A stretch of DNA of 64,000 nucleotides. Origin: Parvularcula dongshanensis (GTDB lineage Bacteria; Pseudomonadota; Alphaproteobacteria; Caulobacterales; Parvularculaceae). The notes under the pieces were generated by a model. The model was given only the letters and a program-made list of their open reading frames with translations. It made no database searches and was not told the origin of the DNA. Shown one piece after another: positions 62,111 through 63,618 of this stretch; within the stretch, counting starts at the first letter, position 1; every line of letters starts with the position of its first letter. Location: positions 62,001-126,000 of the forward strand of contig NZ_JACHOB010000005.1 of assembly GCF_014199615.1 (NCBI RefSeq), in the 5' to 3' direction. The translations under genes and the position numbers were made by a program.

Positions 62111-62590
62111 ATGAACCAAGCCGCCCTCAAGCCCGTTCCGACTGACGACTTGCCCATCGACGCCAGCGCCGCTGCGACCGGACGTCCGGACACGACGCTC
62201 GCGCTCACCCGCGGCGTCGCGCGGCTGATGACGCAGATGGGGCTTGCCGTGATCGCCGAGTTCAAGCTCCCGAACGGACGGCGGGCCGACCTCGCCGGGC
62301 TGGGGCCGAAGGGCGAACTCGTCATCGTCGAGGTGAAGTCGTGCCGCGCGGACCTGGCCGTAGACACGAAGTGGCCCGAGTACCGGGACTACTGCGACCG
62401 TTTCTACTTCGCCGTGAACGAGGTCTTCCCGCTCGAGATGGTCCCGGAAGACGAGGGCCTCATCGTCGCGGACGCGTTCGGCGGCGCGATCCTGCGCGAA
62501 GGCGAACTGAGGAAGCTTTCGGGCGCTCGCCGCAAGGCGGTCACCTTGCGTTTCGCCCGTCAGGCGGCCTTCGGTTGCGGTGGTTTCTGA
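62111..62590 (+). CDS. mmcB: MmcB-family DNA repair protein
   Basis: 159 residues with a PD-(D/E)XK nuclease-like core: RRADLAGLGPKGELVIVEVK, SCRADLAVDTKWPEYRDYC. MmcB is SOS-induced in Caulobacter and helps survival of mitomycin C. AAGGAC lies 5 bases before the ATG. No GTTC-N7-GTTC box is seen upstream here, so LexA control is not supported for this copy. Confidence 0.88.
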   Translation: MNQAALKPVPTDDLPIDASAAATGRPDTTLALTRGVARLMTQMGLAVIAEFKLPNGRRADLAGLGPKGELVIVEVKSCRADLAVDTKWPEYRDYCDRFYFAVNEVFPLEMVPEDEGLIVADAFGGAILREGELRKLSGARRKAVTLRFARQAAFGCGGF

Positions 62591-62680
62591 CAGGCGAAGG
62601 CCGGGTGCGGCGGAATGCCCCCTCTCCCGCTTGTCACGCGTATCGCCTTGGAACGCTTTGGAAAGGGCGTAAGTGAAGCA

Positions 62681-62859
62681 GTGGCGGCGTCCGTGGCGCT
62701 CGTCCTGACGGACTGAGCGCGAGGTCTCTACTCTCTCCCCCGAAGGGGACCTTGGCGGACGCCGCCACCACCGGAACCGAAGTTCCTGAGTGGGAATGTG
62801 GGCAGGTACACTCCCCCCGAAGCGCGGCGACATGAGGTTGGGCAGGTGCCGCCACGCGC
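62681..62859 (-). ncRNA. Candidate structured RNA in the mmcB/HAD gap
   Basis: The 305-base gap (62591-62895) between convergent genes has no protein gene. On the minus strand, in order: an 8-bp stem (62850-62859 with 62822-62829, 2-base bulge), a 5-bp stem (62809-62813 with 62788-62792), GGAAC-UUCG-GUUCC (62773-62786), then a perfect 13-bp stem (62756-62768 with 62681-62693) closing two hairpins, one CCCC-UUCG-GGGG (62737-62748, with an outer AGGU/ACCU pairing) and one of 10 bp (62696-62720). cUUCGg loops form only in minus-strand RNA. It does not look like 6S, SRP, RNase P or tmRNA. No U-run terminator found; 3' end unknown. Confidence 0.55.
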
Positions 62860-62868
62860 CACAATCCT

Positions 62869-62884
62869 AGCACAAACCGTGCCA
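62869..62884 (-). promoter_or_regulatory. Sigma-54-type promoter for the candidate RNA
   Basis: TGGCACGGTTTGTGCT on the minus strand. It matches the RpoN consensus TGGCACG-N4-TTGCW except for one T to G. The GG and GC are spaced 11 bases apart as for the -24 and -12 elements, which predicts transcription start near 62858, exactly the edge of the first hairpin of the candidate RNA. It is 12 bases after the HAD stop. Confidence 0.5.
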
Positions 62885-62895
62885 AGTGAGGACGA

Positions 62896-63618
62896 TTATG
62901 TGGCCGCTTCGCGGCGCGATAACAGGTTCGTGAACTCGTCGGTCAGCTGTTCGTGCGTGGCGAAGACACGTTCGGCCCCGGCATCGATTAACGCTTCGGC
63001 GTGGTCCGGCAAGCAGTGCCCGCCTCCCGTGAAGCCCCAGACCGTCGCTTCGGCCGCAACCCCCGCCGCCACGCCATGCGCGCTGTCTTCGATGACGAGG
63101 CAGCGTTCGGCCGCGACGCCGAGCCTCGTCGCGGCGAAGAGGAATATGTCCGGGGCGGGCTTTCCGTGGCTGACATGGTCCGCCGAGTAGACATGCTGAC
63201 CGAAGACGGGCCGCAGGCCGTATCGGTCGATCTTGTCGTCCAGAAACGCCTGTCCGGATGACGAGGCGACCGCGATCCGGACGCCGGGAAGCCCTTGCAC
63301 CATGCGCAGCAGGTCTTCGGTCCCCGTGACCAACGTCATCGTGTGCCGCTTCGCCCGCCGGGTTTCGATCAGCCCGTCGATGAGCTCCTCGAACTCGCGT
63401 TCGTCGGCATCGCGTCCGAGGATCTGCCCATAGGCCTCGCGCAGCCCCGCCGCGAAGCGGTCGTAGCGCATGCCGCTGAAGCGACGGATGAAGTCCTCGG
63501 TCGTCCAGGCGAAGCCGTGGCCGGACAGGTAGGCGGCCGCGTCCTCGAGTCCGACGACCTCGGAATCGACGAGAACGCCGTCGCAGTCGAAAAGGATCGC
63601 ATCGAAGGGAAAGCTCAT
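62896..63618 (-). CDS. HAD-family hydrolase (beta-phosphoglucomutase-like subclass)
   Basis: 240 residues with the HAD motifs: nucleophile Asp in LFDCDGVLVDSE, motif II in AVASSSGQAFLD, Lys in GKPAPDIFLFAA and the acidic motif IEDSAHGVAAG. A four-helix cap follows the first motif. The family acts on sugar phosphates or phosphoglycolate; the substrate cannot be read. The ATG at 63618 has no ribosome site: a hairpin ends 2 bases before it. Confidence 0.87.
   Translation of the reverse strand: MSFPFDAILFDCDGVLVDSEVVGLEDAAAYLSGHGFAWTTEDFIRRFSGMRYDRFAAGLREAYGQILGRDADEREFEELIDGLIETRRAKRHTMTLVTGTEDLLRMVQGLPGVRIAVASSSGQAFLDDKIDRYGLRPVFGQHVYSADHVSHGKPAPDIFLFAATRLGVAAERCLVIEDSAHGVAAGVAAEATVWGFTGGGHCLPDHAEALIDAGAERVFATHEQLTDEFTNLLSRREAAT

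Follow-up and report, generated by a model that had tools for sequence, protein, structure and literature searches.

The gap between the convergent genes mmcB and a HAD-family hydrolase gene of Parvularcula dongshanensis is strongly structured when its folding is compared with that of shuffled sequences. The question raised by this locus is what the structure represents: one RNA or more than one, and read from which strand. A preliminary description of the window, the whole stretch of 64,000 nucleotides that was analyzed, took it for a single undescribed minus-strand RNA with UUCG tetraloops and an RpoN-like promoter at its core. The best explanation, probable though well short of certain, is that two small RNA genes converge within the gap: a plus-strand sRNA built on a three-way junction with a putatively anti-Shine–Dalgarno (anti-SD) C-rich loop (module A), and a minus-strand RNA (module B).

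The gap between mmcB and the HAD hydrolase gene

The upstream neighbor of module A is mmcB (62111–62590, plus strand; PF06319, E = 4.1e-50, scanned as a longer frame from 62015). The HAD-family hydrolase gene (62896–63618, minus strand; PF00702, E = 5.5e-24) is the convergent neighbor in genus g1, and the convergent arrangement is present in all ten congeners, a count that includes the genome under study (G000). A phage-lysozyme-like gene (PF00959; 61130–61705 of the window) is found near a dksA-like gene and mmcB, on a bacterial chromosome.

On the minus strand, positions 62660–62880 fold with a minimum free energy (MFE) of −113.8 kcal/mol (z = −4.88), which none of 200 shuffles equaled; on the plus strand, the MFE is −99.2 kcal/mol (z = −2.00; 6/200 shuffles as good). 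The z-score of the whole region is better on the minus strand in 10/10 congeners, with the boundaries taken from minus-strand folds. An Rfam 15 scan of the 64-kb window gave no match at gathering score, in agreement with the earlier exclusion of 6S, SRP, RNase P and tmRNA. A lax scan of the gap returned adapt33_4, CRISPR-DR29 and BjrC80 below threshold and at chance level (E = 0.84 to 7.6), the last of these (RF02354) as a weak full-length alignment on the minus strand that scores 15.7 bits where the gathering score is 80 (E = 0.84). Rfam scans of relatives likewise yielded only sub-threshold matches. At E ≤ 10, BLAST of the gap matched every one of 41 genomes, though the matches were convincing in G002 and G008 alone; members beyond these two were identified via synteny, motifs and models.

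Two kinds of structured stretch occupy the gap within the genus. Six type I congeners (G000, G002, G004, G006, G007, G008) have one of 164–183 nt, and four type II congeners (G001, G003, G005, G009; loci L103, L113, L118, L142) have one of 96–104 nt with three hairpins. The type II loops are C-rich, for example UUCCCCCACCCACC and GAUCCCCCAC, and in three of the genomes (G001, G005, G009) the minus strand continues into a T run. Against the Rfam family CcsR1 (RF02791), the type II RNAs score 32.6, 31.9, 29.0 and 23.2 bits, under the cut-off of 65.3; the first value, from G003, is the best RF02791 score at the mmcB–HAD gap. None of 62 genomes of the family exceeded the cut-off anywhere, the best score being 36.8 bits (G064). 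Trees of MmcB alone and of MmcB with HAD group the four type II genomes, with support 1.0 in the combined tree.

The hairpins CCCC-UUCG-GGGG and GGAAC-UUCG-GUUCC, to which the preliminary description drew attention, are indeed present on the minus strand. The third CUUCGG also exists, at 62817–62822 rather than at 62819–62824, and it lies in a linker and forms no loop in the MFE structure. As core features, however, the tetraloops and the promoter have to be given up: among the nine further congeners, no RNA stretch contains CUUCGG and no gap contains TGGCAC, which forms the core of the RpoN-like site.

Module A is a conserved three-way junction

Module A (62681–62768, plus strand) is defined by model matches and covariation. 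Its stem P1, the perfect 13-bp stem already noted in the preliminary description, pairs 62681–62693 with 62756–62768 and encloses two branches, P3 (62696–62720) and P2 (62721–62753). Branch P2 carries the C-rich loop ACUCUCUCCCCCGAA (62730–62744), which is conserved across genera and repeated in other hairpins. In G000, the probability of being unpaired is 0.68–0.98 across UCUCCCCC and 0.2–0.3 at the two preceding bases.

The junction was traced in relatives through UCGGGGGAGAGAGU on the minus strand, equal to ACUCUCUCCCCCGA on the plus strand, and in genera g7 and g8 it likewise follows mmcB, with no HAD gene found adjoining it. A model made from six g7/g8 members (R2), with G000 left out, gave new matches among 62 genomes of the family in G020 (E = 1.9e-7), G043 (8.2e-7), G012 (1.2e-6) and G000 (0.0144). 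The last is the sole match in the G000 genome and falls on module A on the plus strand, with 27.7 bits against 22.1 for the opposite strand. When these four were added, the resulting ten-member model (R3) found a clear match in 11/398 genomes of the order, all from one family; ten are its own members, among them module A of G000 at E = 7.5e-8, and the new one is G002 (E = 2.0e-4). R2 and R3 missed the junction in G004, G006, G007 and G008. R2 found no clear match in 385 genomes of the class, two weak ones (E = 0.016 and 0.044) being dropped; because such wide scans consider only a handful of candidates in each genome, they may overlook distant members.

The junction is present in two of the eleven carriers in which mmcB was undetected, G012 and G020 (genus g4; assemblies 95 and 94% complete), where it lies between ferredoxin-like and SCO1-like genes, as named by eye (L224 and L226, both 1501–1586). 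Module A is therefore not merely the 3′ end of mmcB. Behind mmcB, the pattern TCTCCCCC occurs on the plus strand at 11/128 loci and on the minus strand at none, against two for the reversed control; a pattern match in G055 lies in a different place and was not counted. An R3 match in G054 (E = 0.015; genus g6, L235 1480–1590), also left out of the count, amounts to a simple hairpin whose loop is UUCUCCCCCGAGAA, perhaps a reduced relative.

Compensatory base changes, which the preliminary description had proposed to look for in relatives, are found in both modules. For module A, the model-fitted alignment has two-sided changes in 9/19 pairs (0/500 shuffles), and 95.2% of its cells are paired, against 35–51% in slid versions. 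A plain MAFFT alignment of six gives three two-sided pairs, a number reached by 36/500 shuffles, and a covariation score that none of the 500 equals.

The G.U pairs point to the plus strand. Read in that direction, the junction cells of the model-fitted alignment comprise 157 Watson–Crick pairs, 23 G.U, 3 A.C and 6 others, in an alignment that leans to the plus strand by way of a model built on that strand; the MAFFT alignment of six, which is not fitted to the structure, has 15 G.U cells and no A.C on the plus strand. Taken by itself, the junction sequence folds more stably on the plus strand in 8/15 members, by 0.2 to 8.2 kcal/mol, and more stably on the minus strand in 7/15: by 24.2 kcal/mol in G008, 8.3 in G004, 3.3 in G007 and 3.0 in G015, and by the smaller margins of 1.4 in G006, 1.1 in G022 and 0.8 in G049. 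In P1 of G008, seen by eye, minus-strand G.U pairs would become A.C if read on the plus strand.

Transcription of module A is most likely from the plus strand and from its own promoter, to judge by the sequence. A promoter-like TTGGAA-N16-TAAGTG lies at 62648–62675 on the plus strand, recognized by comparison of 13 upstream sequences; TTG and TA at a spacing of 16–18 stand upstream of the junction in 10/13 members by eye. A near-consensus promoter is found only in G015 and G049 (0/1000 shuffles as good), and the match of G000 taken alone is equaled by 19.7% of shuffles (P = 0.197). The EcfG promoter motif is GGAAC-N16/17-CGTT, and the GGAAC upstream of module A, at 62650–62654, is without CGTT at the required spacing by eye. 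No intrinsic terminator was seen by eye directly after module A in G000.

The loop is also found at several other loci. Rows of two or three hairpins with CUCUCCCCC in the loop of the C-rich strand were recognized by eye in G000 (C1, 692 kb), G002 (C2, 256 kb), G015 (C1, 479 kb, and C2, 123 kb) and G046 (C156). After several of these arrays, GC-rich hairpins and short T runs come next on the C-rich strand, again by eye. Two tandem hairpins of the CUCUCCCCC type stand in G000 (C1:691700–693100; L266) and three in G002 (C2:256000–257400; L267). Both arrays adjoin the apparent 3′ end of a malate dehydrogenase gene (named by eye in L266), and the G000 genome therefore likely has a further sRNA locus here. 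A small ORF adjoins one tandem array.

Counts of the loop complement differ between genomes. GGGGGAGAGR outnumbers its reversed form in G015 (23:5), G046 (29:6), G022 (14:6) and G012 (18:4) but shows little excess in G000 (23:17) and none in G002 (23:26). For GGGGGAGAGAG against the reversed control, the count is 53:12 over nine junction or type I genomes, own copies included (G004, G006, G007, G008, G016, G020, G043, G049, G052), and 16:5 over ten others; in the four type II genomes together it is 2:9. Some complement sites come as pairs or triplets about 60–355 bases apart. Among 84 motif sites (all 23 of G000, 23 of G015 and 14 of G022, and 24 of the 29 in G046), 22 form hairpins at a cut of −15 kcal/mol, compared with 7.4% of 325 controls; at the looser cut of −8, it is 44/84 against 41% of controls. 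Several of the strong G000 hairpins sit inside long ORFs. Complement sites stand just ahead of a possible start codon at 7/23 sites in G015 (four of them ATG), 2/24 in G046 and 1/14 in G022, counts that have no control beside them; by the test used, 0/23 sites in G000 are SD sequences. In G015, GGGGGAGAGA immediately precedes terminator-like hairpins of its own strand (L281, L279); this places the G-rich motif in what may be the 3′ ends of mRNAs, where it could act as a decoy.

In the proposed mechanism, transcription of module A would begin near 62681, at a promoter of its own immediately after mmcB, and the three-way junction would offer ACUCUCUCCCCCGAA in a largely open loop. Module A would be one of a group of sRNA-like hairpins that have a common CUCUCCCCC loop on unrelated stems, some of them in tandem. 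The most likely pairing partners of the loop are G/A-rich Shine–Dalgarno regions (GGGGGAGAG) of mRNAs, whose translation would thereby be blocked or altered. This anti-SD action is proposed by precedent, from alphaproteobacterial sRNAs with C-rich loops (SmelA075/CcsR, GsrN).

Module B and the competing readings of the locus

Module B (62788–62860, minus strand) is a double hairpin with CUGCCC loops. H1 (62822–62860; loop CUGCCCAAC at 62837–62845) and H2 (62788–62818; loop CUGCCC at 62800–62805) were established by BLAST, motif and covariation; BLAST located them in G002 and G008, and the motif located them behind mmcB in G004 and G007. Next to them on the same strand, fold comparison places H3, the small hairpin GGAAC-UUCG-GUUCC (62773–62786). 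A hairpin is kept at this position in most type I loci, and the UUCG loop is not. An extended −10-like TGCTAGGAT (62864–62872, minus strand) precedes H1, and TGnTA is found 12–17 nt ahead of the first hairpin in 7/10 congeners, a pattern that was chosen post hoc.

Module B is thus far confined to the genus: it is present in 5/10 congeners, a sixth (G006) has a variant, and the other four have the CcsR1-like RNA. A model of the five type I loci G000, G002, G004, G007 and G008 (R1), which served only for searching elsewhere, refinds its own loci at E of about 1e-11 or better. Of 62 genomes of the family, 26 match at E ≤ 1, and outside these five the score never exceeds 25.4 bits; among 240 genomes of the class, seven reach E ≤ 0.1, including G000, and the others have at most 25.3 bits. 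Most of the weak matches were inspected (16 loci), and all of these were dropped. G006 shows UGCCCA loops in two hairpins by eye, and its R1 score of 11.1 bits is at chance level.

In the MAFFT alignment of the five, 84.6% of the module B cells are paired (1/500 shuffles), and 6/16 pairs have two-sided changes (0/500 shuffles). A version slid by +3 has seven two-sided pairs against six, but only 50.7% of its cells are paired. Minus-strand G.U pairs whose plus-strand counterparts would be A.C number six in H1 (ten sequences, type II included) and four in H2 (six sequences); the arms for this count were chosen manually for their ability to pair. When the hairpins are folded in isolation, H1 is more stable on the minus strand in G000, G002 and G004 and on the plus strand in G008 and G007, G006 showing no difference; H2 is more stable on the minus strand in 5/6 type I loci.

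For the twelve UGCCC copies in H1 and H2 of the six loci, stem span and energy are matched by 0.6–3.4% of 323 background UGCCC sites. Further UGCCC sites are a third one in G002, in H3 (0.6%), and an extra one in G004 (7.4%). Since the same loop is repeated in two hairpins, the double CUGCCC loops probably represent two copies of one site for pairing or protein binding, the repetition being the basis of this reading. Module B would then be a genus-specific minus-strand RNA whose two hairpins present CUGCCC loops, and at the same site the four type II congeners would make a different minus-strand RNA with C-rich loops.

The minus-strand assignment of the preliminary description stands for the H1–H2 part and is probably wrong for the junction, which outside the genus follows plus-strand pairing (23 G.U to 3 A.C). 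Its undescribed structured RNA is real in that a conserved structure with covariation and without an Rfam match at gathering score exists; the single RNA is probably the wrong reading. Two RNAs are the probable reading because the junction has plus-strand pairing outside the genus and the C-rich loop is common to other hairpins.

A single uninterrupted RNA of about 180 nt from the minus strand, running H1–H2–H3–junction and specific to the genus, is nonetheless a conceivable if rather doubtful alternative. It is kept as a rival because the junctions of G008 and G004 clearly favor the minus strand, and the whole-region z-scores of all ten congeners and the −10-like site ahead of H1 in seven of them fit it as well. 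It is hard to reconcile with the junction of g4, g7 and g8, which obeys plus-strand wobble rules in genomes where R1 gives no strong H1–H2 match, and with a C-rich loop that other hairpins have in common. At the 3′ end of such a minus-strand RNA in G000, no terminator was seen by eye.

The same minus-favoring folds and z-scores, and the score of R2 on the opposite strand, keep a further reading under consideration, one that is clearly less likely: the junction may be used on both strands, the plus RNA pairing with mRNAs and the minus RNA, with GGGGGAGAGAG, acting as a sponge of the C-loop RNAs. The two strands are exactly complementary, and G004 and G008 have junctions that favor the minus strand, but antisense complementarity is trivial at any locus, and in G000 the minus-strand MFE structure pairs part of the G tract with CCCC. 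Just as improbable is the fuller version, in which a palindromic locus would yield an anti-SD sRNA from one strand and its own sponge from the other, the balance of two convergent promoters would set the activity of the genome's entire CUCUCUCCCCC-loop family, and in four congeners, whose genomes nearly lack the loop complement, a CcsR1-like RNA would have taken the place of the locus.

Very improbable, finally, is structured non-regulatory DNA, in the form of terminators or dispersed palindromes: GC-rich palindromes between convergent genes are often terminators, and some C-loop hairpins elsewhere adjoin terminator-like hairpins, but the loop is kept while the stems vary, the element is kept where the next gene runs in the same direction (G012 and G020; G043 by eye), and the region is no repeat in its own genome, so that the REP-type dispersed palindrome considered in the preliminary description was rejected on a second-best listed own-genome BLAST match of 26 bases at 88% (E = 0.03).

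Relation to known RNAs with C-rich loops

The CcsR or cuckoo family is marked by co-transcription with a DUF1127 protein (the CIN1 locus), induction by stress and processing by RNase E. In the passages of PMC3927594 that describe them, SmelA075 and SmelA099 are rows of hairpins with CCUCCUCCC loops and variable stems, present in several copies per genome; the CcsR RNAs of Rhodobacter are placed beside a DUF1127 protein in the corresponding part of PMC10253847. SmelA075/SmelA099, RS0680a and CcsR (CcsR1, RF02791) resemble the present RNAs in their constant C-rich loops and varying stems, perhaps in the several copies per genome, in the hairpin rows, here found at other loci of the genomes, and in the proposed action on ribosome-binding sites. 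They differ in having CCUCCUCCC loops in rows of hairpins, whereas module A has one CUCUCUCCCCC loop inside a three-way junction. Module A falls short of both the Rfam cut-off and the loop motif and is therefore not filed as a CcsR member.

GsrN of Caulobacter, another alphaproteobacterial sRNA, exposes a C-rich loop for base pairing with a G-tract of the katG leader, according to the relevant section of PMC5869019, and module A would be like it in offering such a loop for pairing with a G-tract in an mRNA leader. The difference is that gsrN genes typically lie near regulators of the general stress response (not in C. crescentus) and behind an EcfG site. SisA–D (alphaR8), in the portion of PMC12559287 that deals with them, are dispersed siblings with the common anti-SD segment UUUCCUCCCU, and their sponge CrfA has a G/A-rich stem loop. 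The dispersed siblings, the shared anti-SD segment and the G/A-rich stem-loop counterpart would be points of likeness; in SisA–D, however, the segment is single-stranded beside a weak hairpin, a terminator is present and the sequence is another one, as described there.

Among the paper titles listed, none points to a description of a Parvularcula small RNA, an mmcB sRNA or the loop sequence. If the reading as two RNAs is true, anti-SD sRNAs with C-rich loops, known from Rhizobiales, Rhodobacter and Caulobacter, would be extended to a family for which the titles revealed no sRNA paper, and the novel features would be the different loop sequence and its setting in a three-way junction. The genus itself offers a natural experiment, with six type I members and four that have a different RNA in the same spot and nearly lack the loop complement (2:9). 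By analogy with these systems, module A most likely works as an anti-SD sRNA of the C-rich-loop kind, with a loop and a fold of its own.
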